A DNA stretch of 64,000 bases from Mycobacterium sp. KBS0706. Lineage in GTDB: Bacteria > Pseudomonadota > Alphaproteobacteria > DSM-16000 > Inquilinaceae. Both the position numbers and the translations under genes were made by a program. Positions 28,546 to 58,977 of the stretch are shown piece after piece. Where the stretch lies: assembly GCF_005938675.2 (NCBI RefSeq), contig NZ_VCCH02000006.1, forward strand, positions 62,001 through 126,000, written 5' to 3'. The stretch's first letter is position 1. Each line of letters starts with the position of its first letter. The notes under the pieces are model-generated. The model saw only the letters and a list, made by a program, of their open reading frames with translations, ran no database searches and had not been told where the DNA came from.

Positions 28546-29463
28546 CTAGCTGACCTTGGTGAAGCGGCCCAGGCTGCGGACGATGTTGTCGAGAAGTCCG
28601 CCGCCGCCCTCCGCCGTCGCGACCTGCCTTTGCACCGGCTGTCGGGCGAATCTCGGGTCGACCAGGCGCCGGCGATGCTCGCGGATGGCGGCGCTGACCG
28701 CGAGGCGGAAGACGTTGGGGCTGAGGGGCTTGATGGCGAAGCGGTAGATCTGCCCCTGGTTGATCAGCTTGACGATGGTGTCGGCGTCGGGGGCGGAGGT
28801 CGTCGCCACCACGGTGATCGAGGGATCGATCCTGGCGATCTGCGAGAGCATGTCGGTGACATCGACGCCGTCGACCTCGCTGTTGGTGACGATGACGCCG
28901 ATCTCCTCCTGCTCCAGGATCTCCAGCGCCTCCTCCACGGTCGAGGCGGTCAGGATGCTGTAGTCGCGGGTGAACATCTCGAGCATTTCCTGGCGATCGC
29001 TGGCCAGGCCGTCGATCGCCAGCAGCTTGGTGGCGACGCCGAGCGGCGGCGTCAGCACCGCCTCCGCCTCCTCGGCCGCGGCCGGGGCCGAGCGCGCGAT
29101 CTCGACCGCCTCGGCGATGACCTGGCGCAGCTCGTCCTGGTTCCACGGCTTGTTGAGGAAGCGGAAGACCTCGCCCTCGTTGACCGCGCCGATGATGGCG
29201 ACCAGGTCGCTGTAGCCGGTGAGCAGGATGCGGACCGTGTTGGGCCACCGCCTGCAGACCTGCGACAGCAGCTCGATCCCGACCATCTCCGGCATGCGCT
29301 GGTCGGAGACGATCACGTCGATCCGGTGGGCCTCCAGGATCGCCAGGGCCTCCCGCCCGCTGGTCGCGGTGTGGACGTCATAGCTGGACCGGAACATCAC
29401 CTTGAGCAGCTTCACGATGCGCTCTTCGTCGTCCACGAAGAGCAGGCTGGGCCTGTCAGTCAT
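28546..29463 (-). CDS. Response regulator with tandem receiver domains, second degenerate
   Basis: About 305 residues from the ATG at 29463, which follows AAGGAGAGCGAG; an ATG at 29478 is less likely. The first receiver has the acidic pair VDDEE, phospho-acceptor D in VIVSDQRMPEMVG, T in LLTGYS and K in FLNKPWNQDEL, as in RpfG-type receivers. The second receiver keeps the fold (IGVIVTNSEVDGVD, ATTSAPDADT, FAIKPLSP) but has N in place of the phospho-acceptor D, so it is probably a binding module. No output domain follows; the Arg-rich tail (HRRRLVDPRFARQPVQRQ) may be an interaction segment. It is encoded 85 bases after a histidine kinase and is likely its partner. Confidence 0.92.
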   Translation of the reverse strand: MTDRPSLLFVDDEERIVKLLKVMFRSSYDVHTATSGREALAILEAHRIDVIVSDQRMPEMVGIELLSQVCRRWPNTVRILLTGYSDLVAIIGAVNEGEVFRFLNKPWNQDELRQVIAEAVEIARSAPAAAEEAEAVLTPPLGVATKLLAIDGLASDRQEMLEMFTRDYSILTASTVEEALEILEQEEIGVIVTNSEVDGVDVTDMLSQIARIDPSITVVATTSAPDADTIVKLINQGQIYRFAIKPLSPNVFRLAVSAAIREHRRRLVDPRFARQPVQRQVATAEGGGGLLDNIVRSLGRFTKVS

Positions 29464-29548
29464 CTCGCTCTCCTTCATACCTGCGAAGCGTCATGGGAGG
29501 GGTGGCAAGCGGAGTCGGGCCGGGCGGCGGCCGGATGGTGAAGGTGTC

Positions 29549-31264
29549 TCACGCGGCGGCCTGCTCGAGCCGATGCTCGGCATCGGCCTTGGCGCGATGC
29601 GGCAGGATGATGGTGAAGGTGGTCCCGACGCCGGGCTGGGACCTGGCGGAGATGGTGCCGCCATGGGTCTGGATGATGCGGTAGCAGATCGACAGCCCCA
29701 TGCCGGTCCCCTTGCCCACATCCTTGGTGGTGAAGAACGGATCGAAGATCCTGGGCAGGACGTCCGCCGGGATGCCGGTTCCGCTGTCCTCGATCTCGAT
29801 CCGGATCGAGTCCTCGGACTCGGCCCGCGTGCGCAGGGTCAGCTTGCCGCGGCTGGGCTGATCGGCCATGGCATGGGCGGCGTTGTTGATCAGGTTCAGG
29901 AACACCTGCTTCAGCTGCGTCGCCGACGCATGGATCTTGGGGATCTTGCCGTAGTCCTTGATCGTGTCGGCGATGTATTTGACTTCGGAGCGGGCGATCA
30001 GGGCGGCGCCGTCCAGGGCTTCCTCGATGTCGATATATTCGAGACGGCCTTTGTCGAGGCGCGAGAAGTTCTTCATCGTGATGATCAGGTTGGTGATTTC
30101 CTCGAGGCCGTGCAGCCCTTCGTCGATCAGCATGTTGAGCTCGCCGATCTGATCGTCGGGCAGCCCGTCGGCCCCGGCCGGCCGCAGCTCCGCAATGATG
30201 CCGGAGGCGGCCGTCCTGCCCACCTGCATCTCGGCCATCTGGTCCCGGATCAGGCAGAACACCGCTTTCACATAGGCCAGCGGCGTGTTGATCTCGTGGG
30301 TGATGCCCGCCACCATCTGGCCCATCGCGGACAGCTTCGACGACTGGATCAGCTGCGACTGCACATCCTGGTTGGCCTGCTGCAGCGCGGACTTGTCCTG
30401 GTTGAGCTGCCGGTAGTGGCGGCGCAGCAGGTAGGCGGCCCAGGCCGTCGCCAGGACGAGCATGAAGCAGCACACCAGCATCAGGTCGCGCAGCAGCGAC
30501 CGGTACCGGTTCTGGTCGGCCTCCAGGGCCTGCGCGTCGCGCTGCAGGCGGTCGATCGCCTGGGCGGTCGGCACGGCAGTGAGGTCCACGATCAGCTTGG
30601 TGCCGAGCTGCTTCTGGCGGAGGATGACCGCCATATGGGCCAAGAGCGTGTCCGCCTTGGACGCCGCCTCGGGCGATGTCCGGCCGGCGGCCTCGCGCAA
30701 CGCGGCCATCTGGTTGTCGATGACCTGCCGGAGCTGCTCGCTGGGGGTGACGATATAGCTGGCCACGTCGATGACGATGCGGGTCAGCAGGTTGGCGATC
30801 GGCGGATTGGACGTGGGCCGGTCCGCGCCGCCTTCGAGCTCGGCGAACAGGTCCGCCGCGGCGATCGGCAGCAGGCGCGAGGAGTTGCTGATGATCGAAT
30901 ACTGCGCCTTGATCCGCTCGACGATGCGGATCTTGTCATCCATCGCCGAGCGATACGCGGCGAGCGAGGACGACAGGTCCCCGGTCTCCGCCGGATCGCC
31001 TTCGGCCAGGCCTTCGATCGTCCGGTAGCGATCGGCCAGCTTGCCGACGGGCGCGGCCACGGAGTCGTAGTTGGGGTTCAGGCCCAGCTCCAGGCTGAGG
31101 ACGTCGGCGCTCCACAGTGCGTCGATCTGTTTCATCTCGGCGAGGTTGGCCAGCAGCTCCGACGGCCGGGTGTCCGGCGCGCGCAGCATCGCCAGAAGAC
31201 TCGCCAGGGCCGTGAGAAGAACGGCGACGAGGACACTGCAGACGATCCTGGGTCTGACGATCAT
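29549..31264 (-). CDS. Membrane sensor histidine kinase
   Basis: A 571-residue sensor. Membrane helices lie at about residues 8-27 and 259-280 and enclose a helical periplasmic sensor region of about 230 residues (DAHL/PilJ-like in appearance). A coiled coil ([20 protein letters not shown]) leads into the dimerisation box [21 protein letters not shown] with phospho-acceptor H323. The ATP-binding part has the N box [10 protein letters not shown], the G1 box [11 protein letters not shown], the F box FDPFFTTK and the G2 box [14 protein letters not shown] ribosome binding site precedes the ATG. Its place between a di-heme peroxidase gene and a tandem-receiver gene suggests that it senses a redox or envelope signal. 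Confidence 0.94.
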
Positions 31265-31307
31265 GACATGATCTCCGTCACCGTCTCTTCAATTGCGGTG
31301 GGCCGAT

Positions 31308-32360
31308 TCACTGCGAAACGCGCGCGTCGAGCGGGCGTCCCTTGTATTCGCCGGTGAGGGTTCGCAGGAATGCCACGATCAGCGCGTTGTCGCGCGGCGG
31401 GATCTGGCGCCCGAGCTGGTATTTCGCCATGGCGTCGACCGCTTCGGTCAGCGTGGCGGCCGAGCCGTCGTTGAAATAGGGCGCCGTGAGCGCGACGTTG
31501 CGCAGGCTGGGGACGCGGAAGACGAACTTGTCCTCCTCGGCCTTGGTGGTGTTGTAGAGTCCGAAATCGGGATCGGCGACGGGGCCGTGCGACCGGAAAT
31601 AGTCCCCCGGCATCCCGAGCACCCCGAACACCTGGAACATGTTGCCGCCGACATTCACCCCCTGATGACAGGAGGCGCAGCCATAGGTCTTGAACAGGCG
31701 GTAGCCTTCGAGCTCGTCGGGGTCCAGCGCCGCCGCGTCGCCGCGCAGGAACCTGTCGAACCGCGCATTCGGCGTGATCAGCGACCGTTCATAGACAACC
31801 AGCGCGTCGGTGATGGTCTGCGGCTGCATCCCCTGGGGATACAGCCCGGCGAAGGCCTGGGTCAGCGCCTGGTCCTGCGCCAGCTTGTCGAGGATCGCCG
31901 GCCAGGTCGTGCCCATCACGGCCGGGTCGTGGATCGCGGCCTCGACCTGCTGCTCCGACGATGCGAAGCGGCCATCCCACATCATGCGGAAGTTCAGCGT
32001 CGAGTTGAAGATCGTCAGCGTGTTCCGCTTCCCGGCCTTGCCGCCGAGCCCCTTCGACTTGGCCAGGCCGTCGTCGCCGCCATTGTCGAGGTCATGGCAG
32101 GACGAGCACGCATTCTCGTTGTCCTTGGACAGCCGGACATCGTGGAACAGGGCCTCGCCCAGATTGACCTTGCGCTGATCCAGCTCCAGCTGGAACGGGA
32201 TCGGAGCGATCGGCTCCGGCGTCTGCGCGGCAACCAAAGCGGGTCCCAGAAACGCCAGGGCCAGGGCGGGCACGGCGGCGAGCAGGAGCTGCCGCCCGAC
32301 GGTCGGGGCCGAAGCCTGCCCTGTCACGCGACAGTGCTGAGGGTCGGGATCATGCTTCAT
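31308..32360 (-). CDS. Di-heme cytochrome c peroxidase family protein
   Basis: A 350-residue periplasmic c-type cytochrome. A signal peptide-like segment (about residues 22-46, LLLAAVPALALAFLGPALVAAQ) precedes two heme-binding CxxCH motifs: C85SSC88H89 and C228ASC231H232. FNSTLNFRMMWDGRFASSEQQVEAAI and LRNVALTAPYFNDGSAATLTEAVD are characteristic of bacterial CcpA/MauG-type proteins. The family reduces hydrogen peroxide with electrons from a cytochrome or cupredoxin; some members modify proteins. It heads a minus-strand run with the histidine kinase and receiver protein and is divergent from the polyferredoxin gene, 270 bases away. A small gap separates it from the kinase gene (43 bases). Confidence 0.94.
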   Translation of the reverse strand: MKHDPDPQHCRVTGQASAPTVGRQLLLAAVPALALAFLGPALVAAQTPEPIAPIPFQLELDQRKVNLGEALFHDVRLSKDNENACSSCHDLDNGGDDGLAKSKGLGGKAGKRNTLTIFNSTLNFRMMWDGRFASSEQQVEAAIHDPAVMGTTWPAILDKLAQDQALTQAFAGLYPQGMQPQTITDALVVYERSLITPNARFDRFLRGDAAALDPDELEGYRLFKTYGCASCHQGVNVGGNMFQVFGVLGMPGDYFRSHGPVADPDFGLYNTTKAEEDKFVFRVPSLRNVALTAPYFNDGSAATLTEAVDAMAKYQLGRQIPPRDNALIVAFLRTLTGEYKGRPLDARVSQ

Positions 32361-32630
32361 CTTCTGCCTGCCCTGACGGATTAGTGGCCGCGACGACGAT
32401 GCGTGGCTGGAATTAGTGTCCGTCGGAAGAAGATCTCCACACTATGCGATCTGGTTATGGCCACATCATCGCGGTGATGGGCGGCGAGCCCACGCCGCTG
32501 CGGTACCGTCAGGACCGCGGGCCTCTGGGAGCAGAGTGCTGACACCAGCCCCGAGCGTCGCGCACCACCGGCCAGGATTCACCCGTCCCGGCCGGTCGTT
32601 GCCCAGCCGCCACTGCAGGGAAGGCCTGAC
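32361..32630. promoter_or_regulatory. Divergent promoter region, peroxidase versus polyferredoxin
   Basis: This 270-base gap separates genes transcribed in opposite directions and must hold both promoters. The imperfect direct pair GGATTAGTGGCC (about 32378-32389) and GGAATTAGTGTCC (about 32410-32422) is the only repeat that stands out. No convincing FNR-type TTGAT-N4-ATCAA box is seen. GGGAAGG lies six bases before the polyferredoxin ATG. Confidence 0.45.
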
Positions 32631-35600
32631 ATGCTCGCGCGGACCGCCGAACGGAAGATGCTCGTGGCAAGGGGCGTGCTGCTGACCGGATGGGCCGGTC
32701 TCATCGCCTCGCTGTTCTGGGATCCGGTCTCGATGGGCTGGACCCATGCCGGCACCCCCGTCGCGGTCCAGGACGGCGTGCTGGAAAGCGAGCCGTACCA
32801 GGTCGGGGCCCGGGTGTTCTGGACGATTGTCGTCCCGCTGATCCCGCTGTTCCTGATGGTGTTCGGGCACGAGGCCTGGCGGCGCATCTGCCCGCTGTCG
32901 CTGATGTCCCAGCTGCCGCGCTACCTGGGCTGGCAGCGGCAGCGTACGGTTGTGCGGCGCCGGACCGGCAAGCTCGAGCGGACGCTGGCGCTGATCCCGC
33001 GCGGCGGCTGGCTCGACCGCAACGCCTGGTACATCCAGTTCGGCATCCTGTTCGCCGGGCTGAATGCGCGGATCCTGTTCATCAACAGCGATCGTTATGC
33101 GCTGGCGGCCGCCCTGCTCGTTGTGCTGGCGGCGGCATTCCTGGTCGGCTTCCTCTGGGGCGGCAAGTCCTGGTGCAACTACTTCTGCCCGGCGAACATC
33201 GTCCAGAAGATCTACACCGAGCCGCGCGGCCTGCTGGAAAGCGCGCCGCATCTGCAGCGCCCGGCCGTGCCGCAATCGATGTGCCGCACCAGCTCGCCCG
33301 GCGGCGACCGCAGCGCCTGCGTCGGCTGCACCGCCAACTGCGGCGATATCGATCTCGAGCAATCCTATTGGAGCTCGATCCTCGATCCGGCCCGGCGCCG
33401 CATCTACTACATGTTCAACGGGCTGATCATTGGCTTCTACTGGTATTTCTACCTGTATGCCGGAAGCTGGGACTATTACCTCTCGGGGGTCTGGAGCCAT
33501 GAGGCCGGGGCGCTCGGCCGGCTGCTCGATCCGGGCCTGTATCTCGCCGGCCAGGCGATCCCGATCCCCAAGCTGGTCGCCGTGCCGCTGGTCATGGGGA
33601 CCGCCGTCCTGGCCTCGCTGGCCCTGGGCACCGGGCTGGAGCGGACCTATCGCTGGCTGCGGAGCCGCGCCGGCAAGCCGATCCCCGAAGTGGAGATCGT
33701 CAACCACTGCCTGGGCGTCAGCGCCTATCTGTCGATCAACATCTTCTACCTGTATGGCGGCCGGCCCAGCCTGCTGATGCTGCCCCCGGCCGCGATCCAT
33801 TTCGTCGACATCCTGATCGTCTCGCTCAGCACGATGTGGCTGTGGCAGACGCTCAATCGCTCGGCGTTCCGGTATGAGCGTGAGAAGATCGCGTCAAGTT
33901 TGCTCAATCAATTGAAAAAATTGAAGATCGACCTCAGCCGGTACCTGGATGGCCGGTCGGTCGGCGAGCTCAAGCCCGACGAGATCTACGTCCTGGCCAA
34001 GGTGCTGCCGGAGCTGTCGCACGACCAGAAGCTCGAGGCCTATCGCAACCTGCTGGACGACGCCATCACCACCGGCAAGACCGGGGCGGTGTCGTCTGCC
34101 GATCTGCTGCACGACGTGCGGCAGCAGATGGAGATCAGTGACGAGGACCATCTGCGGCTGCTGGAGGAGCCGGAGATCTCCGAGGCCGCGGTCCTCGGCG
34201 CCGTCCGGACCACCACCAAGGAGCGGATGGCCTGCGTCGCCAACTACCACCAGATCATCGGCCGGTATCTCGTCGCCCATGTCGCGTCCGGCCGGACGCT
34301 CGACACGGTCCGGACCGATCCGGGCATGCAATCGACGATCAGGACCCTGCGCACCAGCCTGCAGATCACCGATGCCGAGCATCGCGGCGTGATGGCGGAG
34401 TTCACCGCGCCTGGCGGCATGCTGGCCCGGCAGATGGAGTCGATCCTCGATGCCCTGGCGAAGCTGCAGGGGGCGTATTTCTGCCTGCAGAGCTCCAGCC
34501 TGCCCGACCGCTTCGCCGGCACCCTGAACGAGCTGCTGCTGGCGGCCGACGAGGACCGGTTCGGGGCGCTGTGCGAGGCCGGACTGTCCTGCCTGCATGC
34601 CTTCGGCGACGGCAAGCTCGGCCGATGGTATGCGCAGGATCTGGCCGCCCTGGCCGGCGATGGCGTGGTCGACGGGCTGTCCCGACCGGTCGCCGGGCAC
34701 GAGGATCTCAGCTGGGGGCAGGCGCTCGGCGAAGCGATCACCGCCGTCCTGCAGGGCATGGCGCCCGAGATCGACGGCGAGCGGCCCGCGGAGCTGCCGC
34801 GGCGGTCGTTCCGCGAGGTCATCGCCGCCGGCCTCGATCGCGCCGCCAGCCTGGCCCTGCTGCTGGAGCACGAGGCGCCGGTCGTCCGCGCCCTGACGCT
34901 GACCGCGTTCAGCTATGTCGACGACGCGCTGGCGCGTGGCACCGCGCGGCGGCTCGCGGAGAACGGGCAGGCCGACGGCCACTGGCTGCTGCGGCAGACG
35001 GTGGACATCCTGGCCGGTGCCGCGGCGGCGGAGTCCGGCGCGGCCGAGCCGGTGATCCACGCCGTGGTCGCGCTGCCCGACGGCACCCGGAGCCGCTCGA
35101 CGCATGCGCAGCCGATGATCACGGTGGGCCGCGGCCCCGGCAACGACATCACCATCGCCAGCCCGATGGTGTGGCCGTACCACATGGCGCTGTCCTCGGC
35201 CCATGGCGAGGTCCGCATCCTGCGGCTCGACGGCGCCCGGATCTTCGTCGACGGCGTCGCCGGCGACGGCGAATCCTTCGTCCTTCGCCGCGACGCCCTG
35301 CTGACCTTCGGGCCGGGCGCCGGGGCCAGCCTGCAGATTGGCTGGCAGGACGCCGCCGAAAGCCGCTGCCTGCGATCCTTCGATCCGGCGCTGCGGCTGG
35401 TGGCGTTGGCCCGTAGCCCGGCGCTGCGGCCGCTGGGGCTCTCCGCCCTCGCCGACATCGTCCGCGACTGCCGGGTCGGGCGCTTCCGGGCCGGCGATAC
35501 GCTGCCGGCGGCGGCCGGGTCGGGCGACATGCGCTTCCTCCAGTTCGGATCGGTCCGCACGTTCGCGCGCAGCTTCGAGGCCGGCGATCTGATCGATCCG

Positions 35601-35756
35601 GGCGATGGCGACGCAGCCTTCGAGATCGTCAGCGACTTCGCGATCGTCATGACCATCGGGCGGCCCGGCCTGGCCGCGACGGCGCCGGACGATCGGCCGC
35701 CGCCGGTCGCCGCTGAGGCCGCGGATCTCACGCCGTCCCTCCGCTACGCCAGCTGA
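32631..35756 (+). CDS. Membrane polyferredoxin (4Fe-4S) fused to helical, FHA and cNMP-like domains
   Basis: 1041 residues with a membrane-bound N-terminal half and a cytoplasmic C-terminal half. Membrane helices lie near 13-30, 62-80, 133-152, 155-178, 258-276, 315-333, 365-378 and 385-405. Cysteines C182xxxC186P (SWCNYFCPA) and C218, C230xxC233xxxC237 resemble NosR/NapH/CcoG-type ferredoxin sites. Residues about 440-620 are helical, with TerB-like text (LPELSHDQKLEAYRNLL) and an internal repeat (QMEISDEDHLRLLEE at 499-513, SLQITDAEHRGVMAE at 576-590). An FHA domain follows (ITVGRGPGNDITI, about 828-905), then a cyclic-nucleotide-binding-like fold (about 935-1010). It is next to a TerB/FAD/2Fe-2S reductase, the likely electron donor. 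No equivalent is known to me by name; the FHA domain near a Thr kinase suggests phospho-control. Confidence 0.85.
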   Translation: MLARTAERKMLVARGVLLTGWAGLIASLFWDPVSMGWTHAGTPVAVQDGVLESEPYQVGARVFWTIVVPLIPLFLMVFGHEAWRRICPLSLMSQLPRYLGWQRQRTVVRRRTGKLERTLALIPRGGWLDRNAWYIQFGILFAGLNARILFINSDRYALAAALLVVLAAAFLVGFLWGGKSWCNYFCPANIVQKIYTEPRGLLESAPHLQRPAVPQSMCRTSSPGGDRSACVGCTANCGDIDLEQSYWSSILDPARRRIYYMFNGLIIGFYWYFYLYAGSWDYYLSGVWSHEAGALGRLLDPGLYLAGQAIPIPKLVAVPLVMGTAVLASLALGTGLERTYRWLRSRAGKPIPEVEIVNHCLGVSAYLSINIFYLYGGRPSLLMLPPAAIHFVDILIVSLSTMWLWQTLNRSAFRYEREKIASSLLNQLKKLKIDLSRYLDGRSVGELKPDEIYVLAKVLPELSHDQKLEAYRNLLDDAITTGKTGAVSSADLLHDVRQQMEISDEDHLRLLEEPEISEAAVLGAVRTTTKERMACVANYHQIIGRYLVAHVASGRTLDTVRTDPGMQSTIRTLRTSLQITDAEHRGVMAEFTAPGGMLARQMESILDALAKLQGAYFCLQSSSLPDRFAGTLNELLLAADEDRFGALCEAGLSCLHAFGDGKLGRWYAQDLAALAGDGVVDGLSRPVAGHEDLSWGQALGEAITAVLQGMAPEIDGERPAELPRRSFREVIAAGLDRAASLALLLEHEAPVVRALTLTAFSYVDDALARGTARRLAENGQADGHWLLRQTVDILAGAAAAESGAAEPVIHAVVALPDGTRSRSTHAQPMITVGRGPGNDITIASPMVWPYHMALSSAHGEVRILRLDGARIFVDGVAGDGESFVLRRDALLTFGPGAGASLQIGWQDAAESRCLRSFDPALRLVALARSPALRPLGLSALADIVRDCRVGRFRAGDTLPAAAGSGDMRFLQFGSVRTFARSFEAGDLIDPGDGDAAFEIVSDFAIVMTIGRPGLAATAPDDRPPPVAAEAADLTPSLRYAS

Positions 35757-35808
35757 TCGCCGGATCGCACCACAAAACACGAGAACCAAGACAGGGAAAC
35801 CACGCGCA

Positions 35809-37491
35809 ATGGATACGCTGACCGAAAATATTACAGCCGAAACACAGGGCGTCGACCTGGCGGTTCTCGTGTTCCTGGTCTTTGTCTATGTCGCCGACAG
35901 CGAAAAGGACATCACGCCGCAGGAGGTGCAGCGCTTCCAGACGCTGATGAACGACCTGCATTGGACCGACAACGAAGATATGTGCCGGGCGCTGACCACG
36001 CTGCGGTTCAACTATACGGCGACCTGGGCCGATTACGAGGCCGGGACGCTGTCGGCGGACCGCGAGGCGATCGCCCGCCAGCTGGCCCGGTTCGACCAGG
36101 ATTTCGGCACCGGGCGGGCGGACGCGCTGAAGGCGTCGCTCGCCGATTTCGTGCAGCGCGTCAGCCGGGGGCCGTCACGGGCGGGCGTCCGGTTCGCCCT
36201 CGGCGAGTCGCGGGGGCGGGCCAACGCCCGGCAGGAGCTCGAGGCTCTGCTGGCGCATCCGACGCCCGCCGCGGCGGACGCGCCGCGCGAGGCCGAGATC
36301 GAGCCGAGACCGGAACCGGCCGCGGCTGCGACGGCCGGCGCCGAGCCCTGGACCGCGGCGCGGATGGCGATCGGCGAGGCGCCGGTTTGGCAGGGCGGCC
36401 GGCTCAAGGTTCGCTGCATCGCCAGCATCGACGAGACGCGGGACACCAGGACCTTCACCCTGGCCGCCGACCCGCCCCGCCTGTTCAGCTACAAGCCCGG
36501 CCAGTTCATCACGCTGGAGCTGCCGGTCGACGGCCGGACCCTGCGGCGGAGCTACACGATCTCGTCCTCTCCGTCGCGGCCCTACACCCTGTCGATCACG
36601 GTCAAGCGCGTGCCCAAGGGCTGGGTCTCGAACTGGCTGCACGACACCATGGTGCCGGGATTCGAGCTCGAGCTGATCGGCCCGCACGGCCATTTCACCT
36701 GCGTCGACCGGCCCGCCGCCAGGCTGCTGTTCATCGCCGGCGGCAGCGGCGTCACGCCGGCGATGTCGATGCTGCGCTGGCTCGCCGACACCGGCTGCGC
36801 CGCCGACATCGTGCTGATCAACAATGTCCGCACGCCGGACGACGTGATCTTCGGGCAGGAGCTGCAGCATCTCAGCTCGCGCCTGGGCGAGGCGCTGCGT
36901 CTCGCCGTCGTGCCGTCGCGGGTATCCCCGGGACAGTCCTGGAACGGCCCGACCGGCCATTTCAGCGAGGCGCTGCTGCGGCTGCTGGCGCCGGACGTCA
37001 TGGAGCGCGAGGTCTTCGTCTGCGGCCCTGCCGGCTACATGGCGATGATCCGGACGCTGCTGCAGGCGCGCGGCTTCCCGATGGCCCGCTACCACGAGGA
37101 AAGCTTCGGCGGCGCACCGGCCTCCGCCCCCGCCTTGCCGGCGCCCCAGGCTACGGCGGCGGTCCACGCTCCCGCGGTCCCGAAGGCGACCGCCGCGGCC
37201 GCACCGGCCCCGGCCGCCGCTGCTGCCGTCGAGGCCAGGCTGGTCTTCCAGGCCAGCGAACGGACGGTCGATTGCCGCGTCGGCGAATCCGTCCTCGACG
37301 CCGCCGACCGCCATGCGATTCCGGTCCAGAGCTCGTGCCGCTCCGGCGTCTGCGGCACCTGTCGGATGCGGAAGCTGAGCGGCACCGTGAGCATGGATGG
37401 CCAGGCCGTCCTGTCCGATCCCGAGATCGCGGACGGCTATTTCCTGGCCTGCATCGGCCAGGCGAGGGGAACCGTCGTGATCGACGCCTGA
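35809..37491 (+). CDS. TerB-like / FAD-NAD(P)H reductase / 2Fe-2S ferredoxin fusion
   Basis: A 560-residue soluble protein. Residues about 14-120 form a helical TerB-like segment (VFVYVADSEKDITPQEVQRF). Residues about 198-300 are the FAD domain with RRSYTISSSP and GPHGHFTCV; about 303-430 form the NAD(P)H domain with FIAGGSGVTP and VFVCGPAGYM. An Ala/Pro linker leads to a plant-type 2Fe-2S domain at about 475-560, with cluster ligands C510, C515, C518 and C548 (SSCRSGVCGTC...FLACIG). Such chains move electrons from NAD(P)H through FAD to a 2Fe-2S cluster, here with a TerB-like module added at the N-terminus. It begins 52 bases after the polyferredoxin stop and is its probable reductase. Confidence 0.9.
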   Translation: MDTLTENITAETQGVDLAVLVFLVFVYVADSEKDITPQEVQRFQTLMNDLHWTDNEDMCRALTTLRFNYTATWADYEAGTLSADREAIARQLARFDQDFGTGRADALKASLADFVQRVSRGPSRAGVRFALGESRGRANARQELEALLAHPTPAAADAPREAEIEPRPEPAAAATAGAEPWTAARMAIGEAPVWQGGRLKVRCIASIDETRDTRTFTLAADPPRLFSYKPGQFITLELPVDGRTLRRSYTISSSPSRPYTLSITVKRVPKGWVSNWLHDTMVPGFELELIGPHGHFTCVDRPAARLLFIAGGSGVTPAMSMLRWLADTGCAADIVLINNVRTPDDVIFGQELQHLSSRLGEALRLAVVPSRVSPGQSWNGPTGHFSEALLRLLAPDVMEREVFVCGPAGYMAMIRTLLQARGFPMARYHEESFGGAPASAPALPAPQATAAVHAPAVPKATAAAAPAPAAAAAVEARLVFQASERTVDCRVGESVLDAADRHAIPVQSSCRSGVCGTCRMRKLSGTVSMDGQAVLSDPEIADGYFLACIGQARGTVVIDA

Positions 37492-37495: not shown

Positions 37496-37529
37496 GGTGA
37501 GGCGGCGGCCGATCGGTCGCCGCCTCACC
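37496..37529. terminator. Bidirectional hairpin between convergent genes
   Basis: GGTGAGGCGGCG (37496-37507) pairs perfectly with CGCCGCCTCACC (37518-37529) around ten bases. It follows the reductase stop by four bases and covers the stop of the convergent TagR-like gene. A 12-bp GC stem between convergent genes fits a shared terminator, although a T run is absent. Confidence 0.65.
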
Positions 37530-39138
37530 GGGTCAGGTCGTCGATCAGGCTTTGGGGGTCGGCGGCGCTGTTGTCGCGCATCCGCCGCATGTGCTGGACG
37601 AACAGGTCGACATAAGGCAGCAGCGCGTCGGAGCCGCGGGCGTGCAGCTCGGCCTTCAGCGCCGGCAACTGGGCGGCGATGATCTCGTCCGAATAGTCGC
37701 TGCCGGTGCTGAGCACGGTGTCGACATAGGTCTCGCGTGAGGTCTTGACGGTGTCCTCCAGCCCGTCCCGCTGGGCCTCCATCTCGCCGATCCGGGCGGT
37801 GGCGTCGGCGATGGCCTTGCGGATCGGCGGATCCTGGCGCCGGGCCTGCAGCTGGCGCAACGCCGGCCGGGCCACGCCCTCGATCGCGCGCTGCACCGCC
37901 AGCAGCCGCTGATGGTCGGTGCGCAGCTTGTTGCCGAGCAGGGCGCCGACATTGATCAGCAGCCGGATGGTGCGGTCCCGGGCGTCGTTGCGGTCGACCA
38001 GCGCCTCGCGGATCGATCGGCCGGCGTCGCGCAGCTGGGCCCGGACCGCCTCGTCGCCCGCCTGGTCGGCGAGGCGGTCGATGGTGCCGAGCGCGGTATC
38101 CTCGCGGCGCGCGGTCGACGGGGCCTCGCCGGAGGACGGCATCGCCTCCCAGGCCTTCTCGATCTCGGTCAGCTTCTCGGGCGAGGTCACCACCGGCGCC
38201 GCGACCACCAGGCGGAAGCCGAGCTGCTGGCTTTCCGTGGCCGTGGCGGCGCCGGCGGCGTAGTAGGGCATCTCGACCCGCATGCCGGACCGGATCTGGC
38301 TCAGCGGGGTGTTGTAGTCGCCGCCGCGCGCGATGAAGCCACCGGCCTGGCCGTGCAGCCGGCCGCGCCGGTTCAGCCGGAAGGATTCCAGCATCATCTC
38401 CGCGGCGTTGCCCAGGATGTCGTGCAGCCCGAGCGGGTTGGGCTTGAGCAGCCCGATCGGGTGCAGCCGGCCCTCGGCCGAGCCGGTGCCCTGGTACCAG
38501 ACATAGTCGGCGGCGCCCTCCGGCATCGGGAACCGGGCCGCCAGGAAATTCTCGGAGGACACGGCCATGCCGCCGCGGGCCGCATATTCCCATTCGTCCT
38601 CGGTCGGCAGGCGCAGGAAGCCGGGCGTGCCCGATTCCGCGGGCAGCTTGTCGCGCGCATGAGCCAGAAGCCATTGCGAATAGCGGTTGGCGAAGCCGAC
38701 CACGTCGAACCAGGAGATCTCGGTCTGCGGCACGCGCTGCCGCATCCCGGGGGCCGGGCAGGCATCGCCGGACAGCGCCGCCCATTGGGCGCGGGTGACC
38801 TCGTATTTGCCGATCAGGAAATAGCGGGTGCCGGGGACGGCAGGGTCGCCGAAGGCGCCGGCGATCACGTCATAGCGCCGGTCGCTGAAGAAGCCGAGCT
38901 CGGGCTGGGCGTCGCCGAACTGGACCCGGACGTCGTCGAGCACCCCGGTCGAGGGCAGGGCGACGCGGCGGAACGCCATGGCGCCGCCGCAGGGCATCGG
39001 CAGCACCACGTCGCCTTCCGCCGGGGCGGGGTTGTAGGCCTCGACCGGCCAGGGGGCGTCCTCGGCGATGGCCGGAGAGGCCGTCAGCAGCGCGGCGCCG
39101 ATCAGCAGGCCCCGGAGGGACGACCGGCGCTCAGCCAT
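37525..39138 (-). CDS. tagR: TagR-like protein (SUMF1/FGE-fold, T6SS threonine-phosphorylation pathway)
   Basis: 537 residues with a signal peptide (SSLRGLLIGAALLTASPAIAEDA). The FGE/SUMF1 fold spans about 40-315: GKYEVTRAQWAAL, FLRLPTEDEWEYAARGG, NPLGLHDILGNAAEMM, FIARGGDYNTPLSQIRSGMR and LGFRLVV. The active-site cysteine pair of true formylglycine enzymes is not visible, as in TagR of Pseudomonas, a periplasmic activator of PpkA. A long helical C-terminal extension (about 330-537) is extra compared with a minimal SUMF1 domain. It follows TagS- and TagT-like genes on the same strand and overlaps the permease gene by eight bases. Gene symbol by order and fold similarity. Confidence 0.8.
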   Translation of the reverse strand: MAERRSSLRGLLIGAALLTASPAIAEDAPWPVEAYNPAPAEGDVVLPMPCGGAMAFRRVALPSTGVLDDVRVQFGDAQPELGFFSDRRYDVIAGAFGDPAVPGTRYFLIGKYEVTRAQWAALSGDACPAPGMRQRVPQTEISWFDVVGFANRYSQWLLAHARDKLPAESGTPGFLRLPTEDEWEYAARGGMAVSSENFLAARFPMPEGAADYVWYQGTGSAEGRLHPIGLLKPNPLGLHDILGNAAEMMLESFRLNRRGRLHGQAGGFIARGGDYNTPLSQIRSGMRVEMPYYAAGAATATESQQLGFRLVVAAPVVTSPEKLTEIEKAWEAMPSSGEAPSTARREDTALGTIDRLADQAGDEAVRAQLRDAGRSIREALVDRNDARDRTIRLLINVGALLGNKLRTDHQRLLAVQRAIEGVARPALRQLQARRQDPPIRKAIADATARIGEMEAQRDGLEDTVKTSRETYVDTVLSTGSDYSDEIIAAQLPALKAELHARGSDALLPYVDLFVQHMRRMRDNSAADPQSLIDDLTR

Positions 39139-40345
39139 CGCGGAGCTCCTTGGAGGCCTCGATGCGGGCCGCCAACAGGCCGCCCCAGCTGGCCGACAGC
39201 AGCGCCGCCGCCATCGTCGCCGCCGCGGCCACGGCGAGGTGGACGGGCAGCAACCGACAGATGCGCTCGCCGGGCAGGAGGCCGGTGGCGAAGGTGGTGT
39301 TGAGCACGGTGGCGGCGCCCTGGAAGACCGCGGCGCCGAGGACGAGACCGAGCAGCGCGATCAGAACGGCCTGGGTCACCGGGAAGGCGACCAGGGCGCG
39401 GGTCGGCAGGCCGATCAGCCGCAAGAGGGCGAGGTCGCGCCGCTTCCGCTCGACATGGCTGCGCAGCCCGGCCGCCAGCGAGATCAGGTAGCCGAAGCCG
39501 CCGCAGCCGGCGATCAGCCAGAAGGCGACGCCGAGATTGCGGTCGAGCGACTGCATCTGGGCGATGTCGGCCGCGGCCGTGCGGACCGCGATGTCCTGGC
39601 GCCGGAACGCCTCCTCCAGCCCGGCCACGTCGTAGATCGAGCGGGCATAGAGGCGGAACCGGGCGAAGCTGCGCTCGGTCTGCGGCCGCGGCCCCCCGGA
39701 CCAGCCGCGGTCGTCGACGGCGTAGCCGTCGCGCCAGTCCTCGGTGGCGACGAGCAGGTCGAGCGGCGCCAGGATCGCCTCGCCCGGCGAGACCGGCTGG
39801 TCGGTGATGCCGGAGACGGTGAGCGGGATGCGCTGCGCCTCCAGCGTGCCGTCGCGCTGGCGGGTGATCTCGGCGACCAGCCGGCCGCCCTCGGCGACGC
39901 CCAGGGATTCGGCCAGCCGCCGCGTCAGCACCACCGCGGCGCCGGCCGGGGGCTCGGCCGCGCCGAGCATCGGGTCGCCGCGGCCGGTCGGCAGCATCGG
40001 CGTGCCGGACAGGGTGCGGCCGCCCGCCTCGCTGCGCAGCCGGGTGATGCCGGCGGCGATCGCGCGGGTCGCCGGCGTGACGAAGGCGACGTCCGGCCGG
40101 GCGGCGAGCTCGGCGAAGACTGCGTCGCCGAAGCAGCCGCTGCCGGCGGGGACGATCTCGCGGTTGCGCGGGTCCTCGATCAGGCGCTGGGCCATGGTGT
40201 CGATCAGGCCGAAGCGCAGCCCGAACAGGACGAGAAGGGGCGCGAGGACCGCGGCCAGGCCGAGCACCTGGCACAGCGCGATGCGCCAGTCATGGCCGAA
40301 ATCCCGGGTGGCGAGGCGCGCCGCCATGGTGATGCGTCCGGTCAT
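39131..40345 (-). CDS. tagS: TagS-like FtsX-type permease
   Basis: A 404-residue inner-membrane protein of the FtsX/MacB permease type. A first helix at about 24-46 (LCQVLGLAAVLAPLLVLFGLRF) is followed by an extracytoplasmic domain and then three helices near the C-terminus (VAFWLIAGCGGFGYLISLAAGLRS, RALVAFPVTQAVLIALLGLVLG and LAVAAAATMAAALLSASWGGLLA). ERKRRDLALLRLIGLPTRALVAFPV is the conserved cytoplasmic FtsX loop. The start at 40345 is fixed by composition; the open frame before it is in the ATPase gene. With the TagT-like ATPase it forms a Tag-type envelope complex that in Pseudomonas relays signals to PpkA. Confidence 0.82.
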   Translation of the reverse strand: MTGRITMAARLATRDFGHDWRIALCQVLGLAAVLAPLLVLFGLRFGLIDTMAQRLIEDPRNREIVPAGSGCFGDAVFAELAARPDVAFVTPATRAIAAGITRLRSEAGGRTLSGTPMLPTGRGDPMLGAAEPPAGAAVVLTRRLAESLGVAEGGRLVAEITRQRDGTLEAQRIPLTVSGITDQPVSPGEAILAPLDLLVATEDWRDGYAVDDRGWSGGPRPQTERSFARFRLYARSIYDVAGLEEAFRRQDIAVRTAAADIAQMQSLDRNLGVAFWLIAGCGGFGYLISLAAGLRSHVERKRRDLALLRLIGLPTRALVAFPVTQAVLIALLGLVLGAAVFQGAATVLNTTFATGLLPGERICRLLPVHLAVAAAATMAAALLSASWGGLLAARIEASKELRDG

Positions 40346-40349
40346 CGGC

Positions 40350-41078
40350 TCAGGTCCAGAAATAGGCGCGCACGACGTCGTCCTCGCGGCGCAGGGCATG
40401 GCCGATGATCCGCCGCCCGCTGGCCTGGGTGCGCGACCAGTCATGCGAGGCGATGACGGCCGTGGTCCGGAAGCGTTCGACCGTCTCGACCAGCAGGGCG
40501 AATACCCGGTCGGCCGTCGGCGGGTCGAGCGAGGCGGTGGGCTCGTCGGCCAGCAGGACGTCCGGGCGATGGGCCAGGGCGCGGGCGATGGCGACCCGCT
40601 GCCGCTCACCCACCGAAAGCCGGTCCGGCTTGAGGCCGAGCAGCCGGCCGAGGCCCAGCCGGTCCGCCAGCTCGCGCACATGGCCGGGATCGTAGCGCCC
40701 GGCGATGCGGGCGGTCAGGGCGATGTTCTCGACCACCGAGAGATAGGGCAGGAGGCCGCCGGTCTGCAGCACATAGCCGATGCTGCGCGCCCGCAGCGCG
40801 GCCAGCGCGTCCCGCCGCCGCCGGCGCCACAGCGCCGCGAGATCCAGCGGCGGACGGCCGATGGCCGCCAGCTCGAAGGTCTCTGCCCGGTCCGGCGCCA
40901 GCGTCCCTGCCAGCAGGTCCAGCAGCGTCGACTTGCCGGATCCCGACTGGCCGTTGAGGAACAGGATCTCGCTGCGCGGCACCACCAGGTTGCTGACATG
41001 CAGCTCGAACCCGGCCGTGCGGGCGCCGCGCCGCAGCACCACGTCGCGCAGCGTGTAGACGGGGGCCGGGCCGATCAT
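40350..41078 (-). CDS. tagT: TagT-like ABC ATPase (LolD/MacB type)
   Basis: A 242-residue cytoplasmic ATPase. Walker A is GQSGSGKST, the signature LSVGERQR, Walker B VLLADEPTASLD, with the H-loop in VIASHDWSR. ATG at 41078 overlaps the stop of the upstream VWA gene (ATGA), and the TagS-like permease starts four bases after its stop. LolD-type ATPases pair with FtsX-like permeases, as here. It is part of a T6SS phospho-signalling block with TagR, TagS, VWA protein and kinase. Confidence 0.85.
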   Translation of the reverse strand: MIGPAPVYTLRDVVLRRGARTAGFELHVSNLVVPRSEILFLNGQSGSGKSTLLDLLAGTLAPDRAETFELAAIGRPPLDLAALWRRRRRDALAALRARSIGYVLQTGGLLPYLSVVENIALTARIAGRYDPGHVRELADRLGLGRLLGLKPDRLSVGERQRVAIARALAHRPDVLLADEPTASLDPPTADRVFALLVETVERFRTTAVIASHDWSRTQASGRRIIGHALRREDDVVRAYFWT

Positions 41079-43087
41079 GGCAGCGCATCGAGCGGCATCG
41101 GATAGACCGCCTCGCCGCCGGTGCGCTGGCCGTCGAGCGCGATCCACAAATCGGTGTTGTCGTAGATCTGCTGGTACAGCGTCACCTTGGCCTGCAGGTC
41201 GTCCAGGAACTGGCGCTGCTGGCCGAAGCTCCAGGACAGCCAGTCATCCTCGGTCAGCTCCATGATCCGGCTGCGATAGGGCAGGCCTTCGAGGTATTCG
41301 CCGATCAGCCCGAGTTCGGCCAGGTGCCGCGACTCCTCCTGGCCGACGCCCTCCGGCCGCCGGGCCATGGTCGCGGCGGCGCTGCGCAGCTGGCGGAAGA
41401 AGTCGTTCGGCGCCACCCGCGTCGCCTCGCCGGCATCGATGATCGCCGCGAGCGTCGTCTGCAGGTCGGACAGCTGGTTCTTGGTGATCAGGACGCGCAC
41501 GTCGAGCGCCTTGCGGGCCGGGTTGGCGATGTCGCGGTCCGAGATCCAGGACGAGAACAGGCGCGGGACGCGGCCGTTCTCCTTCTGGCCGAGATAGGCG
41601 AGCTGCATGGCGCGTCCGACCAGCCCGGTGCGGGCCAGCGCCTCCCGGCTCGGATCGTCGGCCTTGGTGTCGGCGGCGGCAGGCGCATCCGCCGCGGGCG
41701 CCACCTGGCCCTCCGCGGCCGTCTGCATCTGGCCGAGCATGATCCCGGCGATCCGGTCGATCACCGACCCGAAGGTGCGCAGGTCGCCCCCTTCGATCGG
41801 GAAGTACAGGCTGCCGACATTGGGATAGTCGGACAGCGGCTGATAGGCGTCCTCGGCGGCGGCGTGGTCGTCCTTGCCGGCGGCGGTCTTCAGGTGGATC
41901 ACCAGCACCGCGGCGCCCTTCGACTGGGCCAGCAGCCGCAGCTGGTCGGGGTCGAGATGGGTGGAGGAATAGGGGTCGTTGGCCCGGCGCGGGCTGGCGT
42001 CGGTGATCAGCACGATCAGCCGCCCGGCCACGCCGGTCCAGTCGATGTCGTCCAGCGCGGCCTTGACCCCGGCGAAGGAATCCTCGCGGAAGTCGCGGTT
42101 GTCGGCATGCGAGACCTTGGCCGCGTCGAAGCGGTCGAGGAACCCCTTCGGGTCGAGCCCGTCGGACAGCGTGGCGAAGACCTTGGCGATGTACTCGTCG
42201 GGGCGGCCGTCATCGAGCACGTCGCGGAACCCGACCAGGCCGAGGCTGAGCTTGTCGCCCTCCTCGGCGTGCAGCTTCTCGATCAGGGTGCGGATGGTCT
42301 CGCGCGTCCGCGCCACATAGGGGTCCATCGACACGGTGGTGTCGACCACGAAGACGACGCCGGCGCGGTAGCCGGCCATCACCTGCGCCGTGTCGGCGGC
42401 GTTGGTCGCCTGCGGTGGCGGGTCTGCAGTCTCCTGCAGCGAGGTCGCCGCAACCTGCAGGGCCAGGCCGGGGAAGCCCTTGGCGAAATAGCCATCGGTC
42501 CAGTTCAGGATCGGCAGCAGGTAGAACGTCTTGGCCGGATCGATCCAGGTCGAGGGCTCGATCGCCGCGATCGGGCTGTCCGGCGGCAGCGTTCCGGAAA
42601 CCGCCGCTTGCCGAAGCGCCGCGGTTCGGGCCTCCGCATCCGGCGCTTCCATGATCGACAGCAGCGGCGCGGAATCCTTGAAGAATAGAGCACGGTCGCG
42701 GTTGACCGGGTTGGTGAAGTTCACCACCAGGGTCTGCTTCCAGTCGATCGCCTCGGCCTCGGGAAGCCAGCCCAGCGTCTGGCCGCCGGTGTTGGGCCCG
42801 ACCTCGAGCCAGTTGCCGCCGTCGCCGGCCGCCCGGGCATAGACGAAGACCATGGTCAGCGGCGGGATCTCGGCCTCGGCCGGCGGCCCGCCCGGGGACT
42901 GGGACGGCCGCGCGCCCGGGCGGGTCAGCACCCGCTGCCACAGGCTCGTCGTGCCGGCCATCAGCAGCGGCTTGCGGGCGCCGGGCGAAGGTGCCGGGTC
43001 CTGGGCGATCGCCGGGGCGGCAAAGGCCGCCAGCCAGGCCAGGGCCAGCAGGGTGGCGAGGCGGAGCCGGAAGGCTGGGATCGTCAT
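41075..43087 (-). CDS. Secreted VWA-domain protein, homologous to the C-terminal half of PpkA
   Basis: 670 residues with a signal peptide (RLRLATLLALAWLAAFAAPAIAQ). The middle matches the periplasmic half of T6SS kinase PpkA: WLEVG, DWKQTLVVNFTNPVNRDRALFFKD and TFYLLPILNWTDGYF. The VWA domain starts at GVVFVVDTTVSMDPYV, with the metal-site motif DTTVS at 249-253, and continues through VLITDASPRR. In Pseudomonas aeruginosa these regions are one protein with the kinase; here they are separate genes overlapping by four bases. It probably contacts the kinase and the TagR-like protein in the periplasm. The last residues (LYQQIYDNTDLWIALDGQ) resemble the PpkA end. Confidence 0.85.
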   Translation of the reverse strand: MTIPAFRLRLATLLALAWLAAFAAPAIAQDPAPSPGARKPLLMAGTTSLWQRVLTRPGARPSQSPGGPPAEAEIPPLTMVFVYARAAGDGGNWLEVGPNTGGQTLGWLPEAEAIDWKQTLVVNFTNPVNRDRALFFKDSAPLLSIMEAPDAEARTAALRQAAVSGTLPPDSPIAAIEPSTWIDPAKTFYLLPILNWTDGYFAKGFPGLALQVAATSLQETADPPPQATNAADTAQVMAGYRAGVVFVVDTTVSMDPYVARTRETIRTLIEKLHAEEGDKLSLGLVGFRDVLDDGRPDEYIAKVFATLSDGLDPKGFLDRFDAAKVSHADNRDFREDSFAGVKAALDDIDWTGVAGRLIVLITDASPRRANDPYSSTHLDPDQLRLLAQSKGAAVLVIHLKTAAGKDDHAAAEDAYQPLSDYPNVGSLYFPIEGGDLRTFGSVIDRIAGIMLGQMQTAAEGQVAPAADAPAAADTKADDPSREALARTGLVGRAMQLAYLGQKENGRVPRLFSSWISDRDIANPARKALDVRVLITKNQLSDLQTTLAAIIDAGEATRVAPNDFFRQLRSAAATMARRPEGVGQEESRHLAELGLIGEYLEGLPYRSRIMELTEDDWLSWSFGQQRQFLDDLQAKVTLYQQIYDNTDLWIALDGQRTGGEAVYPMPLDALP

Positions 43088-44547
43088 CGCGCGGACTCCG
43101 CGTTGTCGAGGGCCTGCAGCCGGGCGCGGGCGATGCCGATGCCGCGCTGCAGGGCCAAGGCGTAGAACTCCCGCGCCCTGGTCGGGTTGGGGGCGCTGAA
43201 TGGGTTCGGGCCGGTGGTCCGGACATTCGGGTCGTAGAACTGCGCGATGCCGAAGGCCGCGTCGCCGCTGCCGCGCCGCGAGGCCTCCTCCCACAGCACC
43301 AGCGCCGTGTCGGCGTCGCGCTTTTCGGTCAGGAAGCGCTGGCCGGCGGCGAAGACCTCGGCCGGCGCCAGCGTCAGGATCCGCGGCAGCTGTTCGCGGT
43401 CGAGCTCCTGCGCCGGCTCCGCCGCGCCCGGCGGTGCCGACATCAGCGGCAGCGGCGCGGGTGCCGCCGGGGGAGAGTCCGGACCGGACCACCACCACCC
43501 CGCGCCGGCGAAGGCCATCAGAGTGAGGAGCAGGGCGGCACCGAGGGCCGGCCGCGATCGGAGGCGTTCGAGCCAACGGAGCCGGTCGGGCTCCGCCTCG
43601 TCGACCAGGCTGCGCATCGATTGCGGCCGGTCGCGCGGATCGGGGGCCAGCATGCGGGTGATCTGGGTGGCGAGGCCGGGCGGCACGCCGTCCAGATCGG
43701 GGGTGGTCTTGCGGGCCTCGACCGTGGCCATCATGGTCTTGCCCATCTCCAGCGGCCGGCCGCGCGCGGCAGCGGCGAGAACCAGGCCCAGGCTGTAGAT
43801 GTCGGACCGGCCGTCGACTTGGGCGCCGAACAACCCGATCTGTTCCGGCGAGGCCCAGGACAGCTTGCCGGCGAAGCGGCTGCCGACCAGGGTCCGCATG
43901 CTCGGGTCGGCGAAGCGGGCGATGCCGAAATCGATCAGCTTCGCCTGCTCCAGCCGGCCATGCTCGAGGATCACGTTGTCGGGCGACAGATCGCGGTGAT
44001 AGATGCCCTTGTCATGGGCCTCGGCCAGCCCGGCGGCCAGGCGGTCGCGCAGCTGGGCGATCTCGTGCGGCGCGAGCGGTCCCTGGCGCAGCCGGTCGCG
44101 CAGTGACGGGCCGTCGACATACTCCATGATCAGATGCAGTCGGCCGGTTGAGTCGCGGAACAGGCCGTCATAGGCGACGATCGCCGCGTGCCGGATCTTG
44201 CGCAGGGCCTCGGCCTCGCGCAGGAACAGGCTGACGATCGACTCGTCGCCGGCCAGGTCGGGCCGGATGATCTTGATCGCATGCAGCGTCCGCTGGTCGC
44301 GGTGCTCGGCCTGGTAGATCTCGCCCATGCCGCCGCGGCCGATCAGCCGGATGATGCGGTAGGTGTGCAGCACCACCGTCCCCGGCGCCAGCGACGGCCC
44401 GTCCTCCGCCGGCGCGGCCGGGGCGTCGGGCTCGCCTGGCGCGGCCGAGGCCCTCGGTGCGGCCGAGGCGCTCGGCGCGGCCGGTGCGACCAGGCGCGTC
44501 TCGTCGGCCGGCGGCGTCTCGGCGTCACGCATCGGATCGGCGGTCAT
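43084..44547 (-). CDS. ppkA: T6SS Ser/Thr protein kinase (PpkA-like, lacking the VWA part)
   Basis: 487 residues with ATG at 44547. An Ala/Pro-rich N-terminus leads to a Hanks-type kinase domain (about 63-320): glycine loop IGRGGMGEIY, K92 in HAIKIIR, catalytic HRDLSPDN (184-191) and DFG (206-208), GKLSWASPEQ activation segment end. One membrane helix lies at about 335-352 (ALLLTLMAFAGAGWWW), and a Sel1-like periplasmic tail (VLWEEASRRGSGDAAFGIAQFY) follows. It would phosphorylate the FHA protein of the T6SS. The companion VWA domain is a separate downstream gene, so PpkA appears split after its membrane segment. It is the second gene of a run that starts with a small secreted protein. Confidence 0.87.
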   Translation of the reverse strand: MTADPMRDAETPPADETRLVAPAAPSASAAPRASAAPGEPDAPAAPAEDGPSLAPGTVVLHTYRIIRLIGRGGMGEIYQAEHRDQRTLHAIKIIRPDLAGDESIVSLFLREAEALRKIRHAAIVAYDGLFRDSTGRLHLIMEYVDGPSLRDRLRQGPLAPHEIAQLRDRLAAGLAEAHDKGIYHRDLSPDNVILEHGRLEQAKLIDFGIARFADPSMRTLVGSRFAGKLSWASPEQIGLFGAQVDGRSDIYSLGLVLAAAARGRPLEMGKTMMATVEARKTTPDLDGVPPGLATQITRMLAPDPRDRPQSMRSLVDEAEPDRLRWLERLRSRPALGAALLLTLMAFAGAGWWWSGPDSPPAAPAPLPLMSAPPGAAEPAQELDREQLPRILTLAPAEVFAAGQRFLTEKRDADTALVLWEEASRRGSGDAAFGIAQFYDPNVRTTGPNPFSAPNPTRAREFYALALQRGIGIARARLQALDNAESAR

Positions 44548-58975: not shown

Positions 58976-58977
58976 GG

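Follow-up and report, generated by a model that had tools for sequence, protein, structure and literature searches.

Organization of the locus

The stretch of DNA analyzed here (the window) comprises 64,000 nucleotides from Mycobacterium sp. KBS0706 (contig NZ_VCCH02000006.1, positions 62,001 to 126,000), and our subject is a set of five genes at window positions 28546-37491. A response regulator, a histidine kinase with a DAHL domain and a di-haem protein are encoded on the minus strand, and divergent from them, on the plus strand, lie the genes for a membrane iron-sulfur (Fe-S) protein, P1, and a reductase, P2. An earlier reading of the sequence (the original prediction) took P1 and P2 alone as the unit; both proteins are mostly as it described them, but it missed the three genes to their left (28546-32360, minus strand), which travel with the pair. 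The features are as follows.

28546-29478, minus: response regulator, a receiver plus a degenerate second receiver
29549-31264, minus: DAHL histidine kinase, DAHL at residues 33-255, HATPase (Pfam)
31308-32360, minus: di-haem protein of the cytochrome c peroxidase family, CCP_MauG, two CXXCH motifs
32361-32630: intergenic region between the divergent di-haem and P1 genes (from gene coordinates), promoters presumed
32631-35756, plus: P1, 1041 amino acids (aa), membrane Fe-S part, helical linker, FHA domain and cNMP-binding-like fold
32649-33857, plus: P1 membrane part, residues 7-409, eight long helices (AlphaFold model)
33174-33341, plus: P1 Fe-S ligand loop, C182, C186, C218, C230, C233 and C237
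35118-35312, plus: P1 FHA domain, residues 830-894 (Pfam on the excised stretch, Foldseek)
35373-35660, plus: P1 cNMP-binding-like fold, about residues 915-1010, without a Pfam match
35809-37491, plus: P2, 560 aa, helical N-terminus followed by FAD, NAD(P) and 2Fe-2S domains

The two open reading frames (ORFs) originally predicted at 32631-35756 (1041 aa) and 35809-37491 (560 aa) are real genes. Both are uninterrupted, their G+C content at third codon positions is of the coding type, and a second species of the genus (G005) has both at full length in a syntenic block, with P1 87% and P2 86% identical. The window contains no Rfam match at gathering cut-offs, and no relative was found among viral contigs.

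Conservation of the five-gene set

All 13 alphaproteobacterial loci compared, in which P1 is at least 42% identical to that of the window, have these five genes in one and the same divergent arrangement, on both chromosomes and plasmids. These loci are the window itself, G005, plasmids of Rhizobium etli and Agrobacterium fabrum (H1 and H2), and the nine best P1 matches (L048-L056), in which the regulator is 59-66% identical; H3, the second A. fabrum record of three high-coverage plasmid records, was left out. P1 neighborhoods were surveyed in the best 80 of 124 relatives; a gene counted as near lies inside the fetched locus, which reaches up to 10 kb to either side and less on short contigs. 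We propose that the set is a redox-sensing module in which a di-haem sensor is tuned by an electron line running from P2 to P1, a reading to which we give an even chance, and that it probably senses the redox state outside the inner membrane.

The di-haem protein and its DAHL partner

The histidine kinase is recognized by strong matches to DAHL (138.4 bits, cut-off 38) and HATPase (103.7 bits, over cut-off), with HisKA at 20.2 bits falling below its cut-off of 26.9. By eye, two hydrophobic stretches flank the DAHL domain (residues 33-255), and the second receiver of the regulator has Asn at the expected phospho-accepting Asp. No solved chain is related to the DAHL region at E 1e-5, as no match covers residues 33-255.

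DAHL and di-haem genes are near-constant neighbors. Among matches over cut-off in a class sample of 385 genomes, a di-haem gene adjoins the DAHL gene in 10 of 12 cases (the misses are L169 and a fragment, L177), and the same holds for all 28 loci newly drawn from a phylum sample; these are a subset of the places listed there, and the sample is dominated by a few families. Together these give 38 of 40 loci, which, with the order kept in 13 of 13 modules, ties the di-haem protein to the DAHL kinase and the regulator. Five class-sample DAHL matches fall below cut-off; one is accompanied by a piece of a haem gene and four are not. Haem genes on two small contigs (G000:C115, 5.4 kb, and G004:C610, 3.6 kb) have too little flank and were left out of these statements. 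In the cyanobacterial locus L096 (2927-4897) the DAHL domain is followed by an MCP signalling domain instead of a kinase, with HAMP below cut-off, and the gene again lies beside a di-haem gene. The pairing is thus independent of the output domain, and the arrangement suggests a haem-linked signalling system of the chemoreceptor type. Searches of open-licence PubMed Central papers turned up none on a DAHL/peroxidase or FHA/reductase system, as judged by title and abstract start, nor did they reveal where the name DAHL comes from, and the haem/DAHL pairing may already be familiar to curators of the DAHL family.

The di-haem protein matches CCP_MauG at 166.2 bits (Pfam), contains two CXXCH motifs and, by eye, has an apparent signal peptide. 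Its nearest solved relatives are cytochrome c peroxidases (best 9qdt, E 2e-74). We considered and rejected an identity with MauG or MbnH, the peroxidases matching at E 2e-74 to 7e-48 as against 1e-27 for a 'Di-heme enzyme' and 8e-17 and weaker for MauG entries. There are three informative positions. First, the Met of the EAVxxM motif is kept. Second, CHQ follows the second haem motif; this is true of 64 of 65 cassette proteins (di-haem proteins encoded with a DAHL or putative DAHL partner; one is unreadable) and of none of five from genomes without any DAHL match. Third, the column of the active-site Gln in the QFWDGR motif, a residue with a catalytic role in bacterial cytochrome c peroxidase, is occupied by Met. 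That column is Gln in 5/5 proteins from genomes without a DAHL match, in 25/27 readable DAHL-linked relatives of the phylum sample, in 4/24 other cassettes (among which L030 and L043 are on short contigs and L152-L156 have their kinase by annotation or similarity) and in 0/13 module members. This loss throughout the module suggests that its di-haem protein is a sensor.

The same protein could instead be a working peroxidase supplied with electrons by P2 and P1, so that the set removes periplasmic peroxide and the kinase and regulator only control expression of the five genes. The kinship with solved peroxidases, the retention of both CXXCH motifs and of the EAVxxM Met, and the Gln of most phylum-sample relatives all fit such a role, but the loss of that Gln from every module protein does not, and the haem gene is also paired with a kinase in plasmid and genome loci that have no P1 or P2 match. 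We therefore regard peroxide removal as rather unlikely compared with the sensing role proposed above.

The membrane Fe-S protein and its reductase

The membrane part of P1, originally predicted to be NosR/NapH/CcoG-like with six cysteines, is borne out: Fer4_5 scores 29.2 bits (Pfam, cut-off 22) at residues 160-195, and C182, C186, C218, C230, C233 and C237 do not vary across an alignment of 24 sequences, that of the window and those of 23 relatives. The same is true of H80, C87 and H207, which were absent from the earlier list. The AlphaFold model (mean predicted local distance difference test score 80.3, predicted template modelling score 0.51) has eight long helices at residues 7-409, an all-helical region and two beta domains. 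We place the Fe-S side in the cytoplasm on the strength of the marked positive charge of the Cys87 loop (12 K/R to 3 D/E) and the absence of K/R from the first loop; the six other cysteines sit in a neutral loop with 6 K/R and 7 D/E.

Two further regions had been assigned in P1. TerB-like segments, claimed in P1 and at the N-terminus of P2, were not recovered, since no TerB row appears in Pfam at E 10 for P1 425-640 or P2 1-150 and the models show helices only. The cNMP-binding-like fold has fared better: Foldseek matches it to the regulatory domains of PKA and PKG (E about 1e-3) and a family profile that includes cyanobacterial members also finds it, but the last 131 residues of the window's own P1 have no Pfam match, cNMP_binding included.

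P2 resembles phthalate-dioxygenase-reductase, with FAD, NAD(P) and 2Fe-2S domains. FAD_binding_6, NAD_binding_1 and Fer2 follow one another in that order, all over their Pfam cut-offs, in agreement with the electron-transfer chain first described, and a structure model shows a helical N-terminus. The reductase recurs beside the membrane Fe-S protein as a P1-P2 pair in several phyla, which favors the earlier proposal that electrons from NAD(P)H reach the membrane clusters, although we infer the transfer step itself.

P1 also occurs in other settings. In 15 of 46 cyanobacterial-type loci without P2, including L117 and L081, it lies beside ABC transporter genes resembling NrtABCD, the naming resting on gene order and sequence. 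A gene with calcium-binding or RTX-like repeats lies to the left of, and divergent from, a short P1 in four of the 80 scanned loci (L079, L098, L099 and L118, all cyanobacterial-type) and once on a Rhizobium plasmid close to nodL (L014:10701-13305).

FHA domains and Ser/Thr kinases

The FHA domain of the window's P1 scores below the cut-off of 20.7 when the whole protein is searched (15.7 bits) and above it when the stretch is excised (21.0 bits), and Foldseek matches it to FHA structures including GarA and OdhI. FHA domains contact phosphate through Gly-Arg and Ser-x-x-His motifs. In the window copy R834 and H851 are kept, but the canonical Ser and Arg are replaced by W848 and P849. The fold originally assigned is therefore present without its canonical Ser. 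FHA domains are present in 9 of the 24 aligned P1 proteins (proteobacterial), the Ser being kept in one of the nine and in none of three further ones, and P1 of two of the 13 modules (L055 and L056) lacks the domain altogether. With Trp in place of Ser, and Ser rare among P1 FHA domains, binding of phospho-Thr by the window copy is doubtful. No kinase match (E below 1e-10) was found in the fetched flanks of the nine module loci L048-L056.

A different picture emerges from 18 of the 80 P1 loci, all cyanobacterial-type, in which P1 is followed by P2. Here, in 18/18, P2 begins with the FHA domain, whose SRxH motif is canonical, so that across evolution the domain shifts between P1 (proteobacterial) and P2 (cyanobacterial-type); it belongs to the P1-P2 pair. 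A Ser/Thr kinase, in several orientations, is present in the fetched locus of 14/18 of these pairs versus 2/46 loci with P1 and no P2 (Fisher p 7e-9, relatedness ignored). Three of these loci (L092, L103 and L086) are metagenome-assembled genomes (MAGs) labelled as other phyla, two belonging to the 18 and one to the 46. The canonical FHA domain of cyanobacterial P2 and the kinases near it make phospho-control of the redox pair plausible.

Linkage to type VI secretion genes

To the right of P2 in the window are genes related to the type VI secretion system (T6SS).

37525-39138, minus: FGE/SUMF1-like protein (TagR-like), tail to tail with P2 (Pfam)
39131-40681, minus: FtsX-type permease (TagS-like)
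40350-41147, minus: ABC ATPase (TagT-like)
41075-43576, minus: VWA-like protein (below Pfam cut-off), start codon uncertain
43084-44718, minus: Ser/Thr kinase (Pfam), PpkA-like by position
50680-62200: T6SS core, with ClpV, TssF, TssE, Hcp, TssC, TssB and TssA on minus and TssK on plus

The kinase and TagRST-type block originally placed next to the pair is thus present, comprising FGE, FtsX permease, ABC ATPase, VWA-like protein and kinase and then T6SS genes, but it is a separate operon on the opposite strand and convergent with P2, only 33 bases separating the end of P2 from that of the FGE/SUMF1-like ORF.

The module is linked to a T6SS in five of the 13 loci: the window, G005, Arboricoccus, Poseidonocella (L049) and Falsirhodobacter (L054). 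TssC of the last three genera is 72-78% identical to that of the window, and in Arboricoccus a single contig of 118 kb carries both the module and the T6SS, the module lying about 13 kb from VgrG. The genomes of the genus have either both the module and this T6SS lineage (G000 and G005) or neither (the four others, with a TssC at most 54% identical). When nine module genomes were searched for TssC, six were positive; in the rhizobial positives (L050, L051 and L056) TssC is on a contig whose length differs from that of the module's contig.

Further di-haem/DAHL cassettes are found close to T6SS genes. In the window genome and in G005 the same T6SS is bordered on its far side by a second di-haem/DAHL-kinase cassette, which has a DNA-binding regulator of the OmpR type. 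A cassette of this kind is also near this T6SS in Arboricoccus, with its regulator set apart by VgrG. Cassettes are also beside VgrG and a Ser/Thr kinase in G002, beside VgrG in G003, and directly beside another T6SS in G367 (TssC 51% identical). Most cassettes elsewhere are without such neighbors: no T6SS gene was found in the fetched flanks of the class-sample cassettes L139, L140, L141, L143, L144, L149 and L178 or of the plasmid loci L150-L156, nor was any Tss, Hcp, VgrG or ClpV gene present in the 18 cyanobacterial-type and five other pair loci.

A tree built on P1 residues 1-430 unites the rhizobial loci in a single, fully supported group that excludes the T6SS-linked loci, whose inner supports are low. 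Linkage may thus have changed once, by gain or by loss, and a T6SS linkage of old date in this group would fit the tree.

Several other features of these regions were noted. At window 45909-48547 a short IcmF-related ORF and an M23 peptidase ORF overlap in different reading frames, both being conserved in G005, and a full TssM is encoded further on (L040:1018-4644). Two T6SS-linked families of 500-570 aa have no Pfam match, one at L040:5471-7186 (relatives in L046 and L158) and one at L054:14828-16327 (a relative in L049 at about 17113), and they are not linked to each other at E 1e-6. On the other side of the module, a 697-aa ORF at window 25543-27636 has the unusual layout of a periplasmic-binding-protein domain joined to an IclR-type helix-turn-helix and IclR_C.

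Proposed role and alternatives

We envisage the module working as follows. P2 would take electrons from NAD(P)H and, at the cytoplasmic face, hand them to the Fe-S clusters in P1. This protein would move them into the membrane, through the quinone pool or directly, and so set the reduction state of the periplasmic di-haem protein. The latter, rather than acting as an ordinary peroxidase, would sense peroxide, oxygen, nitric oxide or a redox partner and signal through the DAHL domain to the kinase and then the regulator. The FHA and cNMP-like domains of P1 would be regulatory inputs, and in those alphaproteobacteria where the module is linked to a T6SS it may report envelope redox stress to that system.

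A number of observations weigh against this proposal. First, we infer every electron and signal step from what was directly observed, namely protein anatomy and gene order. Second, no periplasmic redox group was recognized in P1, and no DNA-binding domain was found on the regulator. Third, since most DAHL-linked proteins of other classes keep the active-site Gln, peroxidase activity may be their ancestral function. Fourth, P1 is often without a haem gene: only two of 64 cyanobacterial-type P1 loci have one, both in Xenococcaceae MAGs of one project, and none was found in five distant non-cyanobacterial P1-P2 loci (L057, L058, L061, L076 and L083), L076 having full 10-kb flanks and the others being short contigs. 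Fifth, eight of the 13 module loci, all rhizobial, have no T6SS gene beyond general ABC-ATPase matches in the fetched flanks, some of which are short; for R. etli and A. fabrum the search covered the flanks. Sixth, of the 70 class-sample genomes with TssC only the window's own has P1 (match threshold E 1e-10), the other 69 lacking it, and four of these (G367, G204, G375 and G146) have a TssC 63-70% identical to the window's. Two further P1-like matches, in G063 and G282, extend over only a portion of the membrane region and come from genomes without a TssC match. Finally, P2 and the Tag block are convergent. On these last three points the T6SS linkage may be no more than island neighborhood. 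The last possibility is weakened in that the Arboricoccus module and T6SS share a contig and second cassettes flank T6SS genes. By count, then, homologues lie mostly away from T6SS genes (8/13 unlinked, 0/69), an outcome that the original prediction had named beforehand as speaking against its T6SS link, although the P1 tree allows an old linkage. The neighborhood search it had called for did yield T6SS linkage in five of 13 five-gene loci, but not a general device of T6SS control. A general T6SS role for P1 was rejected on its absence from all 69 of those genomes.

The distribution of haem genes bears directly on the possibility that P1 and P2 serve together as a membrane NAD(P)H dehydrogenase or in cluster maintenance, functionally unrelated to the haem sensor, and that the five genes are a co-inherited island. 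The pair occurs without a haem-gene match in 23 of 80 fetched loci (the 18 cyanobacterial-type and five others, several on short contigs), and P1 occurs alone with the NrtABCD-like genes. We nonetheless think this account improbable, as the gene order is kept in all 13 modules, on chromosomes and plasmids and down to 42% P1 identity, and L096 and L107 provide another P1/haem-gene neighborhood. Least probable is the account first offered, a T6SS accessory that senses the T6SS kinase through its FHA domain and so links firing to redox state: the linkage of five modules in different arrangements, the closely related TssC of three other genera and the kinases near cyanobacterial-type FHA-P2 proteins speak for it, but the unlinked majority of modules and the P1-free T6SS genomes, the loss of FHA from two of 13 modules, Trp848 in place of a Ser kept in one of nine P1 FHA domains, the lack of kinase matches near L048-L056 and a Tag block on the opposite strand speak against the proposed coupling.

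If the redox-sensing module is as we propose, a haem protein of the peroxidase family with a near-constant DAHL partner would represent a new form of bacterial redox sensing outside the inner membrane, and the DAHL domain gains a testable partner in the di-haem protein. In cyanobacteria, an FHA domain that moves between the two proteins and has kinases close by would couple electron flow to Ser/Thr phosphorylation, and the T6SS-linked copies make it testable whether envelope oxidative stress controls contact-dependent warfare. More tentatively, DAHL could be the docking or sensing domain of an unnamed receptor class with a separate periplasmic di-haem (pseudo)peroxidase as its sensor; in this module the sensor would be reset by a dedicated NAD(P)H-to-Fe-S membrane line that is gated by phospho-signalling, and in one lineage the receptor would instruct a T6SS.

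Comparison with known systems

Each part of the module belongs to a known family, and no paper on the combination turned up in the literature searches. P1 resembles NosR, NapH and CcoG in being a membrane protein with CxxxCP and CxxCxxxC ligands on a predicted cytoplasmic face and Fer4_5 over cut-off. It differs in adding Cys87, His80 and His207, a helical linker, an FHA domain and a cNMP-like fold; it scores just 14.1 bits on the CcoG model (cut-off 316.7), neither NosR nor NapH is among its NCBIfam rows, and Pfam gives no FMN-binding domain row. P2 shares FAD, NAD(P) and C-terminal 2Fe-2S domains with phthalate-dioxygenase-reductase and GbcB-type reductases, but does not reach the equivalog level of GbcB (383.4, cut-off 500) and has an additional N-terminal region, which is helical or, in cyanobacterial-type loci, an FHA domain.

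The di-haem protein shares the CCP_MauG family, two CXXCH motifs and the EAVxxM Met with bacterial di-haem cytochrome c peroxidases of the CcpA, CcpR and YhjA type, but differs from them in the replacement of Gln in 13/13 module members, in CHQ after the second haem and in having a kinase partner. MauG and MbnH are in the same Pfam family, yet the NCBIfam scores fall far below cut-off (MbnH 160.6, cut-off 362.85; MauG 114.8, cut-off 443.85), and Met is at the expected axial position, where MauG has Tyr.

The block adjoining P2 resembles the TagQRST-PpkA-PppA threonine-phosphorylation pathway of the T6SS in having FGE, FtsX permease, ABC ATPase and kinase, plus a PP2C beyond the window, but it is a separate, convergent transcription unit and the module lies outside it. 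A parallel in principle is the Orp1-Yap1 relay of yeast, in which a peroxidase senses for a separate signalling protein; the module differs in using a haem protein and a histidine kinase, and we claim no homology between the two.

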